Shown here one piece after another: positions 6,447 to 29,592 of a stretch of DNA of 35,395 bases; positions within the stretch are counted from its first letter, which is position 1, and each line of letters opens with the position of its first letter. The position numbers were made by a program, and so were the translations under genes. The notes below the pieces were generated by a model, which worked only from the letters and a program-made list of their open reading frames with translations, was not told the DNA's origin and made no database searches. Source of the stretch: Pseudomonadaceae bacterium. GTDB taxonomy: Bacteria; Pseudomonadota; Gammaproteobacteria; Pseudomonadales; Pseudomonadaceae. The DNA is taken from assembly GCA_007692485.1 (NCBI GenBank), contig REBY01000079.1, positions 1-35,395 of the forward strand, read 5' to 3'.

Positions 6447-9400
6447 TCAGGCTGCCACGACGGATACCGGAATACCGTTGAGCACTGCGTTACCCGATAG
6501 CACGTCGACGACCTGGTCATCGGTAATTTCATTGACGTTGATGCCGGGGTTGCTCTGGGCCACGCGCAGGCTGATGCCTTCGCGGTCGTGGCCCCAGCCA
6601 TGGGGCAGGCAAACGGTGCCGGGCATGATGTCGTCCGTGACCTGCACGCTGACCAGCAGCTCGCCGGTACGCGACATGATGCGTGCCTGCTTGCCATTGG
6701 CCAGGCTCAAGCGTTTGGCGTCAGCGGGGTTGATTAGCAGGTCGCAGCGGTTGTTACCTTTGACCAGACGCTGGCTGTTGTGCATCCAGGAGTTGTTGGT
6801 ACGCAAATCGCGCCGCCCGATCAGCATCAGCTCGTCGCTGTCGGCGCCACGCAATTCCGCCAGAGCGCGGCCCAGATCGGTGACCAGTTCCGGTGGGGTC
6901 AGGTGCAACGTGTTATCTGCGGTAAACAGGTAGCCGGGGAAAGACTCGCGCATGGGCCCCAGGTCCAGACCGTGCGGATAACGCTTGAGTACTTCAACAC
7001 TAAGCGGCTCATCGCGTTTTATCGGTTCGCCACTGTTGTATTCATCGAACCCCTTGCCGTAAGGACCGGTTTGCAGGCCGTGGTCAAGAATCTGTTCCGG
7101 GCTGGGCATTTTGCGCGCGGGTGCTCCGTCCGGGTTCTTCAGCGCCATGATGCGTTGGGCCAGGCCCTGCACAATGTCCCAGTCACTCAGGCTGCCTTCG
7201 GCTGGCTCGAATACCGGATCGCTGAAGCGAGCGATATTGCGTACCGCGAGCATGTTGAACACGATGTCGTATTGCTCATGTTCCAGCGGCCCGGTGGGCG
7301 GCAGGATGATATCGGCATGGCGTGAGGTTTCATTGAGGTAGAAATCGATCGAGACCATGAACTCGAGCTGTTCCAGCGCGGCGTCCATTTGTCGGCCATT
7401 CGGCGTGGACAGTACCGGGTTGCCGGCAACGCAGACAAAACCGCGAACCTGACCTTCGCCGGGGGTGAGCATTTCCTCGGCGATGGTCACGGCGGGGAAA
7501 TAGCTGTCGAACTCGGGCAGGCCGCGGGCACGGCTCTGGTAGGTATTGAAGCTGCCCATCGGCCGACTCTGTGCCTTGTTGAACGCGGGGGTGGTAAACA
7601 TCATGCCGCCGGGGCTATCGAGGTTGCCGGTTAGAATATTCAGGACCAGCATCAGCCAGTGGTTGAGCGCTCCATAACTTTGCGTGGATATACCCATGCG
7701 GCCATAGCAGACGGCACACTCGGCGGCGGCAAAGTCTTCAGCGATCTGTTTGATCTGGTTGACGGCAATCCCGCAACGGGCGCTGACCTGCTCCAGAGTC
7801 AGGCCATCGAACAGTGGTGCCAGAGCGTCCCAGTCATCTGCCAGCTCCTGCAGGCGTCCGGGCTTGGTCAGGCCTTTGTCGAGCACATGGCGGATCAGTC
7901 CCATGAGGAAGAAGGCATCGGTGCCGGGTTTGATAAACAGGTGCTGGTCGACGTAGCGCGCCGACTCGGTGCGACGTGGGTCAACCAGAACCACCTTGCC
8001 ACCGCGCTCGCGTATCCGTTCCAGCCGTTTGAGAATATCGCCCGCGGTCATCAGGCTACCGTTGGAAGCGGCCGGGTTGGCGCCGAGCATCAGCATATAT
8101 TGGGTACGGTCGATATCCGGAATGGTAAACAGCTGGCTGTGACCAAACATCAGGTAGGACACCAGCTGGTGCGGCATCTGGTCAAGTGAGGCAGCCGACG
8201 AGATGTTGCGGGTGCCAATGGCCTTGCGCAGACTGCCAGACGCCAGCATCAACCCCAGGTTGTGCGAAGAGGGGTTACCCCAGTAACCGGCAATAGAATC
8301 GTCGCCATGCCGGCGCTGGATATCGACAAATTTTGCTGCAACCTTATCCAGCGCGGACCCCCAGTCGATTGGTAGCCATTCACCATTGACCTTTTCCAGC
8401 GGTGTACGCAGGCGGTCCGGGTCGTTGTGCAGGTCTTGCAGGGCATAGCCTTTCGGGCAGATATGGCCTTCGCTGTGCGGGTCGTTTTCGTCACCGCTGA
8501 TCGACAGGATCTGCTCGCCCTGGGTTTCGATCACTACGCCACACATGGCTTCACACAAGCTGCAGGCGCGGTGATGGGTTTTCACCGGCAGCCTTGCCTG
8601 TTCTTCCTCACGGGCTCTGGCATCACGGATGACGCTCAACATCTCGGCAATGTTGACTACCTTGCGCCGGGTGCGGCCTTCGCTGCGGCCACGGGCCTGT
8701 TCATGCTGGTCCAGCAGGCGCCAGTCAGCGAGGCTGACGGTATCAACCTTGCGGGCTGCAAGCAGGGTGTCGATGGTTTCTTCCGTCAATTCGGGCAGGC
8801 TGCTGCCCAGGTCATCCAGCAGACGCTGAACGCTTTCCGTGGCGCACTGACGGTTACTGCCGATCACGCCGCTGGCGCCGCGCTTGATCCAGCCGGCAAC
8901 ATAATCACGGCCGTCCGGGTTGCCGTTGATACGGCCTTGCTCATGCTGGATAACCCCGCGCCCGGTATCAAAGGGCAGTTCATCAATGGCTGAACCTTGA
9001 TAACCAATAGCGTGAACGACCAGACCGGCAGGCATATCCAGCGTTTGCTCTGACGGGCGGGCAATCAGCTCGCCCTGGTCATTACGCACCAGCTCGGTAC
9101 GCTGGGCATGCACGGTGCTGACCTGGCCGTTATCAGCACTGAAGCCAGTCGGGCTGGTGTAGAACATAAAGCGGATACGCTTGCCCTCGGCCTGTGGCCG
9201 GGCAGCGATGTCGCGCAGCAGGCTGAGATTTTGGCGCGCTTCGGCAAATTCGGGCTGCTCCAGTTGGCGCGTGGTGGCGTCATCGAGTTCCAGATCGGCC
9301 GGATCGACCAGCAGTTGCAGGCCAGGGATGGCCATCAGCTGTTCCAGTTCTTTCGGGGTAAAAGCGGCCTGTGCCGGACCACGGCGGGCCAGCAGGCGTA

Positions 9401-10256
9401 CTTCTTCAATGCCGCTGTTGGCCAGGGCTTGCAGAGCGTCATCGGCGATATCGGTCTTGGCCAACTGGTCGTTGGGCAACACCAGCAGGCGAGCGATATC
9501 CAGGGCGACATTGCCGATACCAATAATCACCGCAGTGGGGCCGGTGAGGGCAGGGGCAAGTGCGGTTTCGTCCGGGTGGCCGTTATACCAGCCGACAAAA
9601 TTCGAGGACCCGAAGATATTGCCGGCATCCGCGCCGGGCAGCGTCAGCGGACGACTTTGCGAGCCGCCGGTGGCGTATATCACGCCATGGTAGTGCTGGC
9701 GCAGGTCGGCACTGGACAGGTCACGACCAATCTGTACGTTGCCGAAGAAACGGAAGTTCTGCGACTCGGCAATACGTTCAAAGCCAGCGGTAACGGACTT
9801 GATGCGTGGGTGATCTGGCGCTACACCATAGCGCACCAGGCCAAAGGGCGTTGGCAGGCGCTCGAACATATCAATGCGCGCCGCCGGCATTTGCTTCATC
9901 AGGGCTTCGGCAGCATAGAAGCCGCTGGGGCCGGAGCCGACAATGGCAAAACGTCCGGGCAGCCGCGCCAATGGGCTGGCGGCATGTTGGCCGGCCTGGA
10001 TGCTTTCGCGGATGACCGGGCGGATTTTCGCTTCTTCGGCATTCAGGGCAATATAGTTTTGCTGGTCTTCTGGCACCATGCTCTGCGGGAAGATAGCGCC
10101 CTCGGGGCAGGCCGACACACAGGCATTACAATCAATACAGGCCTCGGGGTCGATAAACAGCATCTCTGGTGCTTCACGGAAGGCTTCGACCGGGCACACA
10201 TCGACGCAACTGGTGTGTTTGTTGCCAATACAGCTCTGGGTGACTACGTAGGCCAT
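6447..10256 (-). CDS. Three-part fusion: 7Fe ferredoxin / FAD-NADP reductase / molybdopterin oxidoreductase
   Basis: One uninterrupted 1269-codon frame. Residues 1-60 are a 7Fe ferredoxin: C9, C17, C21-P, then C40-x2-C43-x2-C46-x3-C50-P, the [3Fe-4S]+[4Fe-4S] spacing of Azotobacter FdI. Residues 100-510 are an adrenodoxin-reductase/FprA-type flavoprotein: FAD loop GSGPSG (107-112), NADP loop GIGNVALD (246-253), C-terminal GWIKRGASGVIGSN. After a charged linker, residues 560-1269 form a bis-MGD molybdenum enzyme with a [4Fe-4S] site (C565, C568, C572, C600) and a C-terminal cofactor-binding domain. There is no Tat signal, so it should be cytoplasmic. Inferred electron path: NADPH, FAD, Fe-S, molybdenum. 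The metal-ligand position appears to be D692 in ASLDQMPH, not Cys or Sec. The substrate is unknown. GGAGA lies 5-6 bases ahead of the ATG. It is divergent from an AraC-type regulator. Confidence 0.88.
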   Translation of the reverse strand: MAYVVTQSCIGNKHTSCVDVCPVEAFREAPEMLFIDPEACIDCNACVSACPEGAIFPQSMVPEDQQNYIALNAEEAKIRPVIRESIQAGQHAASPLARLPGRFAIVGSGPSGFYAAEALMKQMPAARIDMFERLPTPFGLVRYGVAPDHPRIKSVTAGFERIAESQNFRFFGNVQIGRDLSSADLRQHYHGVIYATGGSQSRPLTLPGADAGNIFGSSNFVGWYNGHPDETALAPALTGPTAVIIGIGNVALDIARLLVLPNDQLAKTDIADDALQALANSGIEEVRLLARRGPAQAAFTPKELEQLMAIPGLQLLVDPADLELDDATTRQLEQPEFAEARQNLSLLRDIAARPQAEGKRIRFMFYTSPTGFSADNGQVSTVHAQRTELVRNDQGELIARPSEQTLDMPAGLVVHAIGYQGSAIDELPFDTGRGVIQHEQGRINGNPDGRDYVAGWIKRGASGVIGSNRQCATESVQRLLDDLGSSLPELTEETIDTLLAARKVDTVSLADWRLLDQHEQARGRSEGRTRRKVVNIAEMLSVIRDARAREEEQARLPVKTHHRACSLCEAMCGVVIETQGEQILSISGDENDPHSEGHICPKGYALQDLHNDPDRLRTPLEKVNGEWLPIDWGSALDKVAAKFVDIQRRHGDDSIAGYWGNPSSHNLGLMLASGSLRKAIGTRNISSAASLDQMPHQLVSYLMFGHSQLFTIPDIDRTQYMLMLGANPAASNGSLMTAGDILKRLERIRERGGKVVLVDPRRTESARYVDQHLFIKPGTDAFFLMGLIRHVLDKGLTKPGRLQELADDWDALAPLFDGLTLEQVSARCGIAVNQIKQIAEDFAAAECAVCYGRMGISTQSYGALNHWLMLVLNILTGNLDSPGGMMFTTPAFNKAQSRPMGSFNTYQSRARGLPEFDSYFPAVTIAEEMLTPGEGQVRGFVCVAGNPVLSTPNGRQMDAALEQLEFMVSIDFYLNETSRHADIILPPTGPLEHEQYDIVFNMLAVRNIARFSDPVFEPAEGSLSDWDIVQGLAQRIMALKNPDGAPARKMPSPEQILDHGLQTGPYGKGFDEYNSGEPIKRDEPLSVEVLKRYPHGLDLGPMRESFPGYLFTADNTLHLTPPELVTDLGRALAELRGADSDELMLIGRRDLRTNNSWMHNSQRLVKGNNRCDLLINPADAKRLSLANGKQARIMSRTGELLVSVQVTDDIMPGTVCLPHGWGHDREGISLRVAQSNPGINVNEITDDQVVDVLSGNAVLNGIPVSVVAA

Positions 10257-10289
10257 GATCTTCTCCGGGAAGGGACCGCAAAAACCCGT

Positions 10290-10371
10290 ATTCTATGTCC
10301 GGACTTGGTTGGGCGTATTGGCAGCAAGTGCCTGATTGACATTTTGTGCCAGCGTGCCGATAGTGTCAGTT
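10290..10371. promoter_or_regulatory. Shared divergent control region of the molybdoenzyme and AraC-type genes
   Basis: Forward promoter: TTGACA (10336-10341), 17-base spacer, GATAGT (10359-10364), which places the transcript start at about 10371, next to the ATG at 10372. Reverse promoter: TAGAAT (10290-10295, reverse strand) with no recognisable -35, as at activator-dependent promoters. TGNCA-like half-sites lie at 10337 (TGACA), 10347 (TGCCA, exactly one helical turn on), 10355 (TGCCG) and 10364 (TGTCA), with one on the other strand at 10319-10323. This is the kind of array AraC-family proteins bind. Binding is inferred. Confidence 0.55.
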
Positions 10372-11424
10372 ATGAGCAAAACCGACTTTATCCCCTCCGG
10401 CTTTATCGAAACGCTGCACAGCTATGTGCGCGAGCGTGACTTGCCTGCGGGCGGGTTACTGGCTGGCATGGATGTGGAGCTGGAGTCTCCCTACGTGTCG
10501 GCGCAACGATTCTGCGACTTGCTGGCCGCCGTCTGGCAGTTGGACCCGGTTGCTGCTCTGGGCTTGCGCCTGGGGCTCTCCAGTCAACCGCGCCAGTTTG
10601 GCGTGGTGGGCTATATGGTCTCATCCTGCGGCACGTTGGGTCAGGCGTTAGCGCGTTACCACCGCTATCAGGGACTGCTTCAGGGCGGTCTGGCGTCGCG
10701 TGCCTGGCTCAAGGACGGGGTGCTGTATATGCGCTGGACCCAGGCGGTCGCCAATACGCCCTTGGCCACCGAGTTCAGTCTGGCGGTCTTTATCAGTTTG
10801 TGCCAGGCCTTGATCGGCCGCCCGGTGACGCCGATACGGGCCGGTTTGCCCTTTCCCCGGCCGGATGATGTGGGGATATACGAAGCTTTGCTCGGTTGCC
10901 CGGTAGATTTCGAGCGCAGCAGCATCGAGCTGGCCATCCCTGCCCATTTGCTGGCGCTGCCGATTTCCAGCAAAGACCCTTACTTGTTGCGGCTGCTGGA
11001 GCAACAAGCCCAAGCACTGCTCAACCAACAGCCGCGTTTTGATGATGCAGAAGCCGGGCCGTTTTTCTCGCGGGTGCAGGAGCAGATTGTCGAGTCGATG
11101 AAAAATGGCGATGTCAGCGCCGAAGCCGTCGCGCTGGCTCTCGACTGCTCTTTGCGCACCTTCTATCGCCAGTTACGCAGCGCCGGCTATAGCTATCGTG
11201 GCTTGCTTGCGCACACCCGACATACCCTCGCCAGGCAGTATCTGGCTGATCCGGCACTGGCCCAAACCGATGTGGCTCTGTTGCTTGGCTATTCCGAGCA
11301 AAGCTCGTTTATTCGGGCCTTTCGCAGCTGGACCGGGATGACACCCGGAGAGTATCGCAGCAGTCTGCGGCAATCCCCCGAAACGGGATTACCCGCCAGG
11401 GTGGGTGGAAAAACAGTGGTTTAG
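10372..11424 (+). CDS. AraC-family transcriptional regulator (arabinose-binding-like N-domain)
   Basis: A 350-residue regulator of the OruR-like subgroup. The N-terminal ~200 residues match the effector-binding domain of that group (GLRLGLSSQPRQFGVVGYMVSSCGTLGQAL as partial landmarks: GLRLGL, GVVGYMV, LGQAL). The C-terminal ~100 residues hold the double helix-turn-helix, with EAVALALDCSLRTFYRQL as the first and DVALLLGYSEQSSFIRAFRSW as the second, closing with GMTPGEYR. I use the ATG at 10372 (MSKTDF), not the upstream frame extension, which lies in the promoter. It is divergent from the molybdoenzyme fusion by 115 bases and is the obvious candidate to control it. The promoter predicts an almost leaderless message. 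Confidence 0.88.
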   Translation: MSKTDFIPSGFIETLHSYVRERDLPAGGLLAGMDVELESPYVSAQRFCDLLAAVWQLDPVAALGLRLGLSSQPRQFGVVGYMVSSCGTLGQALARYHRYQGLLQGGLASRAWLKDGVLYMRWTQAVANTPLATEFSLAVFISLCQALIGRPVTPIRAGLPFPRPDDVGIYEALLGCPVDFERSSIELAIPAHLLALPISSKDPYLLRLLEQQAQALLNQQPRFDDAEAGPFFSRVQEQIVESMKNGDVSAEAVALALDCSLRTFYRQLRSAGYSYRGLLAHTRHTLARQYLADPALAQTDVALLLGYSEQSSFIRAFRSWTGMTPGEYRSSLRQSPETGLPARVGGKTVV

Positions 11425-14452: not shown

Positions 14453-15988
14453 ATGACCAAGCCGGTGATCGCCGATAATAAGCCAGTCAAGCAACAGCTT
14501 ACCAAGGGTGAGGAATACTTTTTCTGCACCTGTGGTCGCTCCAAGGATCAGCCGTTTTGTGACGGTTCTCACGCCGATACGGGCTTCACACCAAAAAGTT
14601 TTGTTGCCGAGGAAACCGGCGAGGCTTGGCTGTGCCAGTGCAAACACACCGGTGATGCGCCTTTCTGTGATGGGTCGCATAAAGCATTTGCTGACCAACA
14701 GGTGGGTGAAGAAGGGCCTGGCGATAAAGAGGATGACAAACTTATTGCCAAGGCGACGGCCGAAGAGCCGACAGTCGAGTTTATCCATCAACTGGCCCGC
14801 GAAGGTCTGAAAGGGGTTGGCCCGCACGGGCCGGTCTCAGCGATGGGTGTGCCGCGGCACAGTTTGCCCGACTGGGATGATCTGCAGTTGATGGTGGCGC
14901 AACTGGCCAGTCGCCCGTTAATGGAAGATGAGCCGGTAGTGACCGAGCTGGTTATTGGCCCGGAAGCGAAGAAGCCACTGACGCTAGATATCCCTTTACT
15001 GGTTTCGGACATGTCCTTCGGGGCCTTGTCTGAAGAGGCCAAGGTCGCTCTGGCCAAAGGTGCTGAATTGGCGGGTACCGGTATTTGCTCGGGCGAGGGC
15101 GGTATGTTGCCGGAAGAGCAGCAGGCTAACTCGCGCTATTTTTACGAGCTGGGCAGTGCCCTGTACGGTTACAGCGAAGCCCAGTTGAGCAAGGTGCAGG
15201 CGTTCCACTTCAAGGGCGGCCAAGCGGCCAAGACGGGTACGGGCGGTCATCTGCCGGCAAACAAGAATGTGGGCAAGATTGCCGAGGTGCGTAACCTTAA
15301 AGAGGGTATGTCGGCCGTATCACCACCCACATTCAAGGATCTCAGCACCGTTGCGGATTTCAAGCGTTTTGCTGATCGGGTGCGCGAGGTCACGGGCGGC
15401 ATACCGATTGGTTTCAAATTGAGTGCCAACCATATTGAGCAGGATATCCAGTTTGCCCTGGATGCTGGCGCCGATTACATCATTCTGGATGGCCGCGGCG
15501 GTGGGACGGGTGCGTCCCCGGAGATGTTCCGTGACCATATCAGCGTACCAACTATCCCTGCGCTGGCCCGGGCCCGACGCTACCTGGACAAGCAGAAAGC
15601 CAGTGGCCGGGTAACCCTGATTGTGACGGGTGGTTTGCGAGTACCCATGGACTTCGTCAAGGCGCTGGCCTTGGGTGCCGATGGTGTCGCGCTGGCTAAC
15701 AGCGCAATCCAGGCGGTTGGCTGTGTCGGCGCGCGTATGTGCCATACCAACAACTGCCCTGCCGGGATTGCTACCCAGCGGGAGGATTTACGCAAACGTC
15801 TGAACGTGGACGCGTCGGCTAAACAGCTGCAGACCTTTCTGCAGTCATCGACTGAGCTGATGCAGGTCATGGCGCGTGCTTGCGGGCATCATGCCTTGAG
15901 TGATTTCAACTCACGTGATCTGGCGACCTGGCACCGCGAGATGGCTCTGTTGTCCGGGGTTGAGTACGCGGGCCTGAGCAAGCTCTGA
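14453..15988 (+). CDS. Double CDGSH iron-sulfur / glutamate-synthase FMN-domain fusion protein
   Basis: A 511-residue fusion. The N-terminus carries two CDGSH [2Fe-2S] sites: C25, C27, C36, H40 and C61, C63, C72, H76, each ending CDGSH. Residues from about 120 on are the FMN-binding domain of the glutamate synthase large subunit, with SDMSFGALSEEAK, GTGGHLPANKN, LDGRGGGTGASP and the [3Fe-4S] motif C424-x5-C430-x4-C435. There is no N-terminal glutaminase domain, so it cannot take ammonia from glutamine in cis. Such stand-alone FMN domains occur in many bacteria and archaea, with mostly unproven substrates. The CDGSH sites suggest that it accepts single electrons or senses redox or iron state. 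AAGGG about 8 bases before the ATG. Confidence 0.9.
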   Translation: MTKPVIADNKPVKQQLTKGEEYFFCTCGRSKDQPFCDGSHADTGFTPKSFVAEETGEAWLCQCKHTGDAPFCDGSHKAFADQQVGEEGPGDKEDDKLIAKATAEEPTVEFIHQLAREGLKGVGPHGPVSAMGVPRHSLPDWDDLQLMVAQLASRPLMEDEPVVTELVIGPEAKKPLTLDIPLLVSDMSFGALSEEAKVALAKGAELAGTGICSGEGGMLPEEQQANSRYFYELGSALYGYSEAQLSKVQAFHFKGGQAAKTGTGGHLPANKNVGKIAEVRNLKEGMSAVSPPTFKDLSTVADFKRFADRVREVTGGIPIGFKLSANHIEQDIQFALDAGADYIILDGRGGGTGASPEMFRDHISVPTIPALARARRYLDKQKASGRVTLIVTGGLRVPMDFVKALALGADGVALANSAIQAVGCVGARMCHTNNCPAGIATQREDLRKRLNVDASAKQLQTFLQSSTELMQVMARACGHHALSDFNSRDLATWHREMALLSGVEYAGLSKL

Positions 15989-26270: not shown

Positions 26271-27389
26271 ATGCGTGAAAAGGTAACCAACGCCCGGCGC
26301 TGGGTCGTAAAGATTGGCAGCGCATTGCTGACTGGCGACGGTCGTGGCTTGGATCAGGATGCCATGCGCATCTGGGTTGAGCAGCTGGTTGCCTTGCGTA
26401 ATAGCGGCGCCGATCTGGTACTGGTCTCTTCCGGCGCTGTAGCTGCGGGCATGAGCCGTCTGGGCTGGAGCGAGCGGCCGAAAACCATCCATGAGTTGCA
26501 GGCAGCGGCTGCGATTGGTCAGATGGGCCTGGTGCAGGCCTGGGAATCCAGTTTTCAGGCCCATGGCCTGGCGACAGCGCAGGTGCTGCTGACCCACGAT
26601 GACCTGTCGGATCGCAAACGTTACCTGAATGCGCGCAGCACCCTGCGGGCATTGCTCGATCTGGGTGTGATTCCGGTCGTCAACGAAAACGATACCGTCG
26701 TCACTGACGAGATTCGCTTTGGTGACAACGATACCTTGGGCGCGCTGGTAACTAATCTGGTTGAGGCGGACTTGTTGGTGATTTTGACCGACAAGGACGG
26801 CCTGTACACGGCTGATCCCGGTCGTGATCCGAATGCCGAACTGATTGCCGAAGCCATGGCGGACGATGCCCGCTTGGACGCTATGGCGGGCGGCAGTGCT
26901 GGCGCACTGGGTCGTGGCGGCATGCTGACCAAGTTGCGCGCAGCGCGTCTAGCTGCGCGCTCGGGTGCCGGTACGGTGATTGTTGGTGGGCGCATCGAGC
27001 GGGTGATTGACCGTCTGCATGCGGGCGAGCCACTGGGTACGCTGCTGTTGCCCGAGAAAGGGCTGTTGGCCGCGCGCAAGCAGTGGCTGGCTGGACACTT
27101 GCAGATTCGCGGCCGTTTATTCGTGGATGCGGGTGCGGTGCGTGCCTTGACCAGTGGGCGGCGCAGTTTGTTGCCGGTGGGTGTGACCGCAGTCGAGGGG
27201 AGTTTCCGTCGTGGCGAGATGGTTGCCTGCGTGGGGCCGGACGGGCGTGAAGTGGCGCGTGGCCTGGTTAACTACGGTATCCAGGATGCTCAGCGTATTG
27301 TTGGGCAGCCGACCGAGTCAATCAGCAGTATTCTGGGTTATATCGATGAGCCGGAGCTGGTACACCGGGATAACCTGGTTCTGCTCTGA
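26271..27389 (+). CDS. proB: Glutamate 5-kinase
   Basis: A 372-residue enzyme catalysing the first step of proline synthesis, ATP-dependent phosphorylation of glutamate to gamma-glutamyl phosphate. The amino-acid kinase domain covers residues 1-~260, with [49 protein letters not shown] in consecutive conserved blocks, and GTGGMLTK-like [12 protein letters not shown]. The C-terminal ~100 residues are a PUA domain ([12 protein letters not shown] to ARGLVNYG). In the family, proline inhibits the kinase. proA is not in the window. It ends just before a bidirectional terminator facing rpsT. Confidence 0.97.
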
Positions 27390-27417
27390 TGGGCTGAATT
27401 GGCCAAATGACAGGCAC

Positions 27418-27445
27418 AAAAAAACCGGCCAAGGCCGGTTTTTTT
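27418..27445. terminator. Bidirectional intrinsic terminator, proB / rpsT
   Basis: Seven A, CCGGCC (27425-27430), AA, GGCCGG (27433-27438), seven T (27439-27445). The symmetry gives a GC stem with a T-run when read from either side, so it can end both proB and the convergent rpsT transcript. Confidence 0.95.
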
Positions 27446-27463
27446 ACGACAATTGCTACAGCA

Positions 27464-27736
27464 TCAAGCGGCTTCAGCCAGGGCCTTGATGTGAGCATTC
27501 AGGCGGCTCTTGTGACGAGCGGCCTTGTTTTTGTCGAGAATGCCTTTGTCAGCCATGCGGTCAATGACCGGGACAGCTGCGGTGTAGGCCGTTTTGGCTT
27601 GTTCCAGATCTTTGGCGTCGATCGCCTTGATCACGTTCTTGATGTACGTGCGGACCATGGAGCGCAGGCTGGCATTGTGGCTGCGGCGCTTCTCGGCCTG
27701 CTTGGCGCGTTTTTTGGCTTGAGGTGAGTTGGCCAC
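27464..27736 (-). CDS. rpsT: Ribosomal protein bS20
   Basis: A 90-residue, strongly basic 30S protein that binds 16S rRNA helices near the 5' domain. Typical blocks are [31 protein letters not shown] and the C-terminal [17 protein letters not shown]. The start codon is GTG (27734-27736, reverse strand), with GAGGAG about 8 bases ahead. E. coli rpsT is also known for a non-ATG start (UUG) linked to autogenous control, so the weak start may be functional here. A sigma-70 promoter lies at 27788-27816 on the reverse strand. It is divergent from murJ. Confidence 0.97.
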
Positions 27737-27787
27737 CGTCGTGCTCCTCAGAAATACTGAATGAATAAGGGTCGAATAAGGCCGCGT

Positions 27788-27816
27788 ACTATGCCGCCGG
27801 GCTTGGGGAATGTCAA
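27788..27816 (-). promoter_or_regulatory. Sigma-70 promoter of rpsT
   Basis: On the reverse strand, TTGACA (27811-27816), an exact 17-base spacer and CATAGT (27788-27793). The predicted start gives a leader of about 45 bases before the rpsT GTG. Confidence 0.75.
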
Positions 27817-27931
27817 GCCTGTCACACGTTATAACGCGCCGTCATCCGATTGCCGGTTATCAAGACGCACAAGGGGTGCCTTGTGGCCCTGCATCGGGCT
27901 ATTATCGCGGTTTTTGCCGCACGGATAAACC

Positions 27932-29500
27932 ATGACCACCAACACCTCACCTCCAGCAGCGGAACCCAAGGCCCACGGCCTGCTGCGTTCGGGTATGGTG
28001 GTCAGCATCATGACCATGCTGTCGCGGGTGCTGGGCATGGTGCGTGACGTGGTGGTTGCCAATTATTTTGGCTCCAAGTCCGAGGCGGATGCCTTTTTTA
28101 TTGCCTTCAAAATCCCTAACTTTCTGCGCCGGCTGTTCGCCGAAGGGGCTTTTGCCCAGGCCTTTGTGCCGGTTCTGTCGGAATATCGCACCCGGCGCAG
28201 TCTGGCTGAGGTCAAGCAGTTGGTGGACCGGGTGGCCGGCACCCTGGGAATTACTCTGGTGGCGATTACGGCACTGGGGGTGGCCGGTGCGCCGGTGCTG
28301 ATTACCCTGTTTGCGCCAGGGTTTCATGGCGACGCCTACAAGCTGGGCCTCGCCACCGATATGCTGCGCATTACCTTTCCTTATCTGCTGCTGATTTCGC
28401 TGACGGCCTTTTGTGGTTCGATTCTCAACAGTTATGGCCGCTTTGCCGTACCGGCGTTTACTCCGGTACTGCTCAACTTGTGCATGATTGGGGCGACTGT
28501 GCTGCTCAGCCCCTGGTTCGAGCAACCCATCATGGCTCTGGCTTGGGGCGTATTCATTGCCGGGGTGGCGCAGTTGTTGTTTCAGGTGCCTTTCCTCTGG
28601 CGTATCCGGCTGCTGCCGGTGCCGCGGCCGAACCGGCGTGATGAGGGCGTCAAACGCATCATGACCTTGATGATTCCGGCACTCTTTGCGGTGTCGGTGA
28701 GTCAGATCAATCTGTTGCTGGATACTGTGCTCGCGTCTTTCCTGCAGACCGGCAGTATCTCCTGGCTGTATTACGCTGATCGGTTGTCCGAGCTGCCGTT
28801 GGGCGCTTTCGGTATTGCCATCGGGACGGTGATTCTGCCTGCACTGTCACGCCAACATGCCGGCGCTGACCCCAAAGCCTTTGCCGCTACATTGGACTGG
28901 GCCATTCGTATGGTGCTGTTGATCGGTGTGCCGGCGGCACTGGCCTTGTTGTTATTGGCGGAGCCGCTGATCGCCACCTTGTTTCACTATGGCGCCATGA
29001 CTGATCGCGACGTGCTGCAGTCAGCGGCGGCCTTGCGTGCCTACGCGGTGGGGGTGATGACCTTTATGCTGATCAAGGTGCTGGCACCCGGCTACTTTGC
29101 CCGTCAGGACACCAAAACCCCGGTCAAGATTGCCATTGTGTGCATGGTAGCCAATATGGTGCTGAACCTGATCCTGATCTGGCCCCTGGCCCATGTTGGC
29201 CTGGCGCTGGCAACGTCCTTGTCGGCCTTGCTCAACGCCGGTTTGCTCTGGTGGGGGTTGCGCAAGTCGGGCATCTACATTGCCCAGCCTGGCTGGGGGC
29301 TGTTTGCCCTGCGTTTGGTGCTGGCCAGTCTGGCCATGGTGCTGGTGGTGTATTGGCTAGCCGCGGATGCCAGCCTGTGGTTGCAGTGGGGCTGGCAGCA
29401 GCGTGTGACCCAGATGGGCTTGCTGGTACTGGCTGGTGCCGGTGCTTATGGCCTGGCCCTGCTGTTGGCTGGCTTTCGCCCGCGTCATCTACGCAAATAA
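27932..29500 (+). CDS. murJ: Lipid II flippase MurJ
   Basis: A 522-residue inner-membrane protein of the MOP (multidrug/oligosaccharidyl-lipid/polysaccharide exporter) superfamily that moves lipid II to the periplasmic face for cell-wall synthesis. Landmarks are SMVVSIMTMLSRVLGMVRD at the N-terminus, the FKIPNFLRRLFAEGAFAQAFVPVL block that is diagnostic of MurJ, and APGFHGD. About 14 membrane helices spread over the sequence. The essential arginines of the cavity lie in RVLGMVRD and in the PNFLRRLFAEG segment. The ATG at 27932 follows a modest GGA ribosome site. It is divergent from rpsT and followed by ribF, as in P. aeruginosa. Confidence 0.96.
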   Translation: MTTNTSPPAAEPKAHGLLRSGMVVSIMTMLSRVLGMVRDVVVANYFGSKSEADAFFIAFKIPNFLRRLFAEGAFAQAFVPVLSEYRTRRSLAEVKQLVDRVAGTLGITLVAITALGVAGAPVLITLFAPGFHGDAYKLGLATDMLRITFPYLLLISLTAFCGSILNSYGRFAVPAFTPVLLNLCMIGATVLLSPWFEQPIMALAWGVFIAGVAQLLFQVPFLWRIRLLPVPRPNRRDEGVKRIMTLMIPALFAVSVSQINLLLDTVLASFLQTGSISWLYYADRLSELPLGAFGIAIGTVILPALSRQHAGADPKAFAATLDWAIRMVLLIGVPAALALLLLAEPLIATLFHYGAMTDRDVLQSAAALRAYAVGVMTFMLIKVLAPGYFARQDTKTPVKIAIVCMVANMVLNLILIWPLAHVGLALATSLSALLNAGLLWWGLRKSGIYIAQPGWGLFALRLVLASLAMVLVVYWLAADASLWLQWGWQQRVTQMGLLVLAGAGAYGLALLLAGFRPRHLRK

Positions 29501-29592
29501 TTCACTTCCCGGCGCCACGCGGCGCTGGTGGCTTGCCTGGCGCCCCATGAGGTATACTGCGGCGCTTTCACTCATCCACTACGACGAGCACT

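Follow-up and report, generated by a model that had tools for sequence, protein, structure and literature searches.

A putative self-sufficient NADPH-dependent molybdenum reductase encoded divergently from an AraC-family regulator in a Pseudomonadaceae bacterium

Can one polypeptide carry electrons from nicotinamide adenine dinucleotide phosphate (NADPH) to a molybdenum center, and what would such a chain act on? Enzymes with a bis-molybdopterin guanine dinucleotide (bis-MGD) cofactor are usually multisubunit complexes that need an electron partner. The question is raised by a gene on a 35,395-nt stretch of DNA from a Pseudomonadaceae bacterium (GCA_007692485.1, contig REBY01000079.1), the whole of which is referred to as the window herein. 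The 1269-residue product joins a ferredoxin, an FprA-type flavin adenine dinucleotide (FAD)/NADPH reductase, and a bis-MGD-type molybdenum oxidoreductase (Table 1). From sequence comparisons, we favor, with a probability of about 60%, the reading that this fusion protein is a cytosolic, substrate-induced, self-sufficient NADPH-dependent molybdenum reductase of a small organic compound. New here are the Asp at the ligand position of the family, a separate fusion of the family to a CysJ-like reductase, and a divergent AraC gene with an operator-like block.

Architecture and active site of the fusion protein

An initial annotation of the window had proposed this three-part architecture in a single frame. 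The proposal was borne out: the coordinates, strand, length, and ATG start were exact, the frame has zero internal stops, and all of the residues named were in place. Five Pfam domains occur in the expected order, each above its cutoff, namely Fer4 (residues 34-55), Pyr_redox_2 (103-258), Molybdop_Fe4S4 (559-609), Molybdopterin (615-1034), and Molydop_binding (1143-1257). In an alignment of nine fusions, cysteines C9, C17, C21, C40, C43, C46, C50, C565, C568, C572, and C600 are invariant, and the motifs GSGPSG (107-112) and GIGNVALD (246-253) vary only at S108 and I247, in one row each. The worry that a sequencing error had joined two genes was dispelled, and an assembly join rejected, since full-length open frames recur in the genus (12 of 37 genomes, four of these in one-contig assemblies), in named contigs, and across the order.

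The N-terminal domain matched the NCBIfam FdxA model over residues 1-87 with 95.6 bits, below the cutoff of 135. Its solved relative is ferredoxin I (residues 2-85, E ~1e-21), and alignment with this protein showed that all seven cysteines of the 3Fe and 4Fe sites are present. From this cysteine pattern, the clusters would be one [3Fe-4S] and one [4Fe-4S]; no [2Fe-2S] ferredoxin family was found among the Pfam matches to the fusion at E <= 0.001. For residues 100-542, the solved relatives are Mycobacterium tuberculosis FprA (1lqt, E 5e-106) and adrenodoxin reductase (E 1e-88), and the fold match of the predicted domain to FprA gave a template-modeling (TM) score of 0.91-0.92 of the target. The FAD and NADP motifs align with those of FprA, as do R291 and R292 with its RR pair, which we take to have a role at the 2'-phosphate. 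The likeness of the first two parts to the mycobacterial ferredoxin plus FprA-type protein, presumably the one named FprB, also held. Residues ~1-544 match ferredoxin-FprA loci of Rhodococcus and Nocardia with 40-44% identity. In these proteins, however, no molybdenum domain follows in frame, whereas in the fusion the two parts make up the N-terminal two fifths of the polypeptide.

The initial annotation had further reported no twin-arginine (Tat) signal, subunit, or membrane partner. We found no RR pair in residues 1-40 and no such partner among the window genes scanned, to which we add that a regulator gene does belong to the locus. The hydropathy maximum of the chain (2.05 in a 19-residue window) lies at residue 242, within the reductase domain. 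These comparisons support the idea of a soluble, NADPH-linked enzyme.

For residues 552-1269, the best solved relative is the FdhF subunit of a hydrogen-dependent CO2 reductase (E 2.1e-42), with formate dehydrogenases ranking next. The structural model of this domain (predicted local distance difference test score, pLDDT, 92; predicted TM score, pTM, 0.93) matched the folds of NapA, formate dehydrogenase, and polysulfide reductase with TM scores (query) of 0.70-0.79 among the 50 matches listed. By its domains in order and its predicted fold, the fusion falls within the dimethyl sulfoxide (DMSO) reductase superfamily of bis-MGD enzymes. The closest curated model is Fdh-alpha (TIGR01591; 232.4 bits versus a cutoff of 666.25), and NasC (NF047855) scored 206.4 bits versus 1100 and the type II model TIGR03479 (DMSO_red_II_alp) 115.6 bits versus 984.75. 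The narG model did not rank within the top 25 of 74 families. None of the curated models listed reaches its cutoff for the fusion protein or for the four relatives scanned, and none covers the whole chain.

We then located the active-site columns in phmmer alignments, which are gap-free here. The selenocysteine (Sec) or Cys of formate dehydrogenases aligns to Asp692, the His that follows it to Gln693, and the Arg of the formate dehydrogenase helix to Trp867; we take these three residues to have active-site roles in formate dehydrogenases. Among 115 aligned rows, which include the window protein twice, the four cluster cysteines and Lys602, presumably an electron relay, are present in all. Asp692 is found in 114 (the exception, a distant Thioclava protein, has a gap), and Gln693 and Trp867 are found in 104 each. 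By alignment, the metal-ligand position of the family is Asp, not Cys or Sec. The family combines this Asp with an otherwise type I-like scaffold, judged by its best curated models (formate dehydrogenase and NasC) and the best folds given above.

The cluster of NarG is of the His type. Compared with NarG and PcrA, the fusion shares Asp as the ligand by alignment, but its cluster ligands are four Cys and the type II model scores far below its cutoff. With type I enzymes such as FdhF and NapA, it shares the fold, three Pfam domains, the CxxCxxxC...C cluster, and the lysine of the CPK motif; it differs in the Asp position, the loss of the formate residues, and the covalently attached reductase. 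In the published scheme, as given in an excerpt of its source, type I has a Cys or Sec ligand, type II is marked by Asp, and type III by Ser, and Asp outside the NarG group had already been proposed for haloarchaeal DmsA and TorA (PMC6650914).

Relatives, a second fusion, and distribution

To place the fusion, a tree was built from 91 of the 115 rows, omitting near-copies and some fragments; long branches were seen for the Thioclava protein (L044), three Williamsia rows, and L041. Nine fusions (the window and eight others) lie on one side of a branch with a Shimodaira-Hasegawa-like approximate likelihood ratio test (SH-aLRT) support of 99. Nearest to them are two unfused proteins (L049 and L052, support 94), inside a large family of unfused molybdoenzymes that bears no curated name among the models scanned. 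In this tree, the fusions group together as one clade within the unfused family. The window genome also holds an unfused member (G000:C19, 50% identity), and such members occur in 15 of the 16 other genomes of its family in the phylum sample. The fusion genes of one genus occupy two places in the clade, with one (G023) grouping with that of Pseudomonas sp. SJZ079, which suggests transfer of the gene between lineages.

Two kinds of gene neighborhood were seen around unfused members. At L049 and L052, a small same-strand gene (L049:10150-10671, L052:10153-10692) overlaps the end of the molybdenum gene, and the sequence starts of the two are similar. When 60 unfused-family loci were clustered by neighbors, a glutaredoxin-like gene lay downstream in 11 and an argF-like gene upstream in 7 (names read from sequence). 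At L137 and in part of L164-L181, the unfused paralogue is often upstream of the glutaredoxin-like gene, with the argF-like gene on the opposite side.

The same family is also fused, in a second clade, to a CysJ-like NADPH diflavin reductase, as judged by sequence. In four metagenome-assembled genomes (L054, L056, L060, and L076), the same molybdenum domain is N-terminal and the diflavin reductase C-terminal. The reductase part of L054 matched CysJ with 544.7 bits (cutoff 668.15), and the other three were judged by their sequences. All four fall in a separate clade of six with a support of 100, the other members of which (L055 and L058) lack a reductase within the molybdenum frame. In Nocardia exalbida, Williamsia sp. 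1138, and Rhodococcus sp. BP22, the molybdenum gene directly precedes a separate ferredoxin-FprA gene. The diflavin fusions, together with these adjacent genes in three Actinobacteria, favor reduction by NADPH as the direction of the reaction. In the Williamsia locus (L085:5803-14010), one ferredoxin-FprA gene is surrounded by three divergent molybdoenzyme genes, and genes that read by sequence as acyl-CoA synthetase-like and CoA-transferase-like lie beside them. On Thioclava plasmid p4 (L044:4808-11030), a divergent AraC, a molybdoenzyme, a ferredoxin, an FprA-type reductase, and glp are separate genes, those of the ferredoxin and the reductase coming after that of the molybdoenzyme. We rejected this locus as the unfused ancestor because its molybdenum protein is 23% identical with a gap at the Asp column, and we regard it as a parallel case.

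Matches to the fusion at E <= 1e-240 occur in 14 of the 37 genus genomes, of which 12 have one full-length frame and two, G020 and G015, have the gene in pieces. In both of these, the N-terminal portion lies on a separate contig, and the G015 piece contains one TAG. The full-length fusion was likewise found on contigs labeled Aestuariicella, Aestuariirhabdus, Acinetobacter sp. ANC 4204, Glaciecola sp. 33A, and Pseudomonas sp. SJZ079, giving at least five genera, since counts from the scan of named genomes are lower bounds. In a Halomonadaceae metagenome-assembled genome, the N-terminal 540 residues are encoded at the edge of a contig. Among 390 genomes sampled across the order, eight hold the fusion, comprising the window's own and seven others, some of which may belong to species already represented by the named contigs. 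No full-length match except the window's own was found in the class (369 genomes) and phylum (398 genomes) samples. From these counts, the fusion is uncommon and patchy. Our search of the open-licence literature found no published homologue with the same architecture.

A divergent AraC gene and a conserved intergenic block

The gene on the other side of the intergenic region encodes an AraC-family regulator (Table 1). A divergent AraC gene accompanies the fusion in 23 of 25 loci; of the other two, L130 is truncated where its contig stops, and the 19 kb of L216 contain no such gene. This count includes L047 and L203, which share the same figures and are probably one genome, and omits the fragmentary fusions of G015 and G020, both of whose genomes have the block described below. 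Alignment of upstream regions revealed a conserved block, TGGCACAAAATGTCAA, and, 12-13 bases beyond it, the sequence TGYCAATAC or a variant thereof. The block is found at <=3 mismatches in 24 of the 25 loci and is exact in 20, with L216 lacking the block as well as the regulator. A genome-wide search of the genus with one mismatch found it in all 10 fusion genomes of the set and in none of the 13 fusion-free genomes searched; in G014, a second copy lies at a contig end next to a regulator fragment. When the 390 genomes of the order sample were searched for the exact block blind to genes, there were five matches (the window and four others), all beside an AraC-fusion pair. Of the eight fusion genomes in this sample, three are without an exact copy: in two the block differs at 1 or 2 positions, and in G933 both the block and the AraC gene are absent.

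On the basis of this conservation, we consider the block a candidate operator. It overlaps a -35-like TTGACA on the regulator's strand, an overlap that makes self-control by the regulator possible, although the number of promoter-like sites as such (3, versus 1.7 +/- 1.1 for chance alone) does not clearly exceed random expectation.

Table 1 Features of the fusion locus (window positions) and of the diflavin fusions (positions in their own loci)
Feature	Coordinates	Strand	Basis or source
Fusion gene, 1269 aa (ferredoxin, FprA-type FAD/NADPH reductase, bis-MGD-type molybdenum oxidoreductase)	6447..10256	-	Intact open reading frame, Pfam/NCBIfam, also one frame elsewhere
7Fe ferredoxin domain, residues 1-87	9996..10256	-	FdxA model (below cutoff), ferredoxin I alignment
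FprA/adrenodoxin-reductase domain, residues ~100-542	8631..9959	-	FprA sequence and fold matches
Molybdenum domain, residues 552-1269; predicted [4Fe-4S] site C565/C568/C572/C600, Lys602, Asp692	6447..8603	-	Pfam, alignments, model
Intergenic region between divergent fusion and AraC genes, 115 bp	10257..10371	
Operator-like block TGGCACAAAATGTCAA	10336..10351	-	Aligned upstream regions, genome searches
Probable second half site TGCCAATAC, 12 bases past the first block; variants elsewhere	10315..10323	-	Aligned upstream regions
AraC-family regulator, 350 aa, Arabinose_bd N-domain and HTH_18	10372..11424	+	Pfam
Molybdenum domain-diflavin reductase fusions	L054:7968-11768, L056:7962-11717, L060:7908-11711, L076:4493-8245		Metagenome-assembled genomes of Woeseiaceae and Robiginitomaculaceae

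Proposed mechanism and competing readings

In the mechanism that we propose, NADPH would donate a hydride to the FAD of the FprA-type domain, from which single electrons would pass via the two N-terminal ferredoxin clusters to the [4Fe-4S] cluster beside the active site, and then past Lys602 to an Asp-ligated bis-MGD metal center. The substrate reduced at the metal center would be a small organic compound, most likely through an oxygen-bearing group such as an S-oxide, N-oxide, N-hydroxyl, or hydroxyl. The divergent AraC protein would sense the compound or its product and act at one operator, such that enzyme and regulator would form a two-gene unit. The electron order, direction, metal, induction, and substrate class are what we infer. 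Taken together, the type of regulator and the lack of fixed partners point to the single-step conversion of one organic compound. If true, a single soluble NADPH-driven chain would lend itself to easy assay, engineering, and use, and the dedicated regulator would be a direct route to the substrate, as a promoter reporter could reveal its inducer.

Eukaryotic NAD(P)H nitrate reductase likewise runs from NAD(P)H to molybdenum in a single chain; unlike the fusion, it belongs to the sulfite oxidase family, with a heme relay and a different fold. By description rather than by sequence, the fusion resembles the catechol dehydroxylases of gut Eggerthella and Gordonibacter, which an excerpt of PMC11574389 presents as substrate-regulated bis-MGD reductases of organic compounds, but which have two or three components instead of one chain. 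More tentatively, the fusion may represent a class of self-sufficient molybdenum reductases, similar in design to self-sufficient cytochromes P450, that would set an Asp-ligated center in a type I (Nap/formate dehydrogenase-like) scaffold, be fused at least twice to different NADPH reductases, and travel across gammaproteobacterial families as a portable enzyme-plus-regulator unit to sense and reduce one organic compound in the aerobic cytoplasm.

Several observations weigh against the favored NADPH-dependent reductase. When frames antisense to the fusion are disregarded, each neighboring gene family other than AraC was seen in at most 4 of 20 loci, so the proposal of an organic substrate rests on the type of regulator. 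The candidate operator is conserved DNA only. With one mismatch, the block also matched 1 of 11 more distant genomes (G038, at a locus with neither gene), and a reversed control pattern matched 2 of 34 genomes. The model of residues 1-1195 (pLDDT 89, pTM 0.74) is lower in the ferredoxin blocks (61-83). Lastly, FprA-type reductases work in both directions, which means that reduction of NADP is also allowed.

This reversibility is one ground for the strongest alternative, an oxidizing dehydrogenase or hydroxylase in which an organic compound would be oxidized at the molybdenum center and the reductase would operate in reverse, generating NADPH. Asp-ligated type II enzymes do include hydroxylases, such as ethylbenzene dehydrogenase, and a few fusion loci hold acyl-CoA dehydrogenase-like, flavin monooxygenase-like, or glutathione S-transferase (GST)-like genes (read from sequence starts). 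We nonetheless consider this reading unlikely, since family members are joined to CysJ-type diflavin reductases, which normally serve as electron donors.

An assimilatory nitrate reductase variant fed by NADPH would fit the periplasmic nitrate reductase among the best fold matches and the NasC match. The NasC cutoff alone is a weak argument against it, as the NasC-like gene of the same genome also falls below this cutoff (503.9 bits). That separate gene (G000:C201:30123-32225), however, adjoins nirB (27168-29546). Both genes are present in 13 of the 14 genus fusion genomes, and G006, with neither at the limits used, keeps the fusion. In the 23 fusion-free genomes of the genus, nirB is present in 22 and a NasC-like gene in 15, and this distribution gives no sign that the fusion replaces the NasC-like gene. 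Together with Asp in place of the Cys of this type of nitrate reductase, these points make the nitrate reading improbable.

Slightly less probable is a reading modeled on StnC of Sporomusa. StnC, the nearest published chain found in the open-licence literature, and the 1178-aa chain of Caldicellulosiruptor NfnABC (9bov) likewise unite NADPH/FAD and FdhF-like domains, and Foldseek aligned both over the length of the fusion, with TM scores of only 0.32-0.33. According to an excerpt of PMC10482914, StnC is a GltD-NuoG/FdhF chain of a bifurcating complex in which the FdhF domain is catalytically inactive. The fusion reductase, by contrast, best matches FprA, and the cluster cysteines, Lys602, Asp692, and the Molydop_binding domain are all kept, with no partner genes among the window genes scanned. 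An NADP-linked formate dehydrogenase or CO2 reductase, for which the closest curated model (Fdh-alpha) and the closest solved sequences (FdhF-type subunits) speak, is the least probable of all because the Fdh-alpha score is below its cutoff and Asp692, Gln693, and Trp867 replace the Sec/Cys, His, and Arg to which we ascribe active-site roles.

At three loci outside the genus (L212:6867-7979, L214:6974-8275, and L215:5982-7088; 64-66% mutual identity), the next gene downstream of the fusion, on its own strand, is GST-like. We rejected GST as a conserved partner of the fusion, since the GST of the window is a 33-35% identical paralogue 6.8 kb away, a homologue (E <= 1e-30) occurs in 30 of 37 genus genomes, and the six closest (56-67% identity) are in fusion-free genomes. 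Elsewhere in the window, positions 14453-15988 hold a glutamate synthase-like domain and CDGSH iron-binding domains in one frame.

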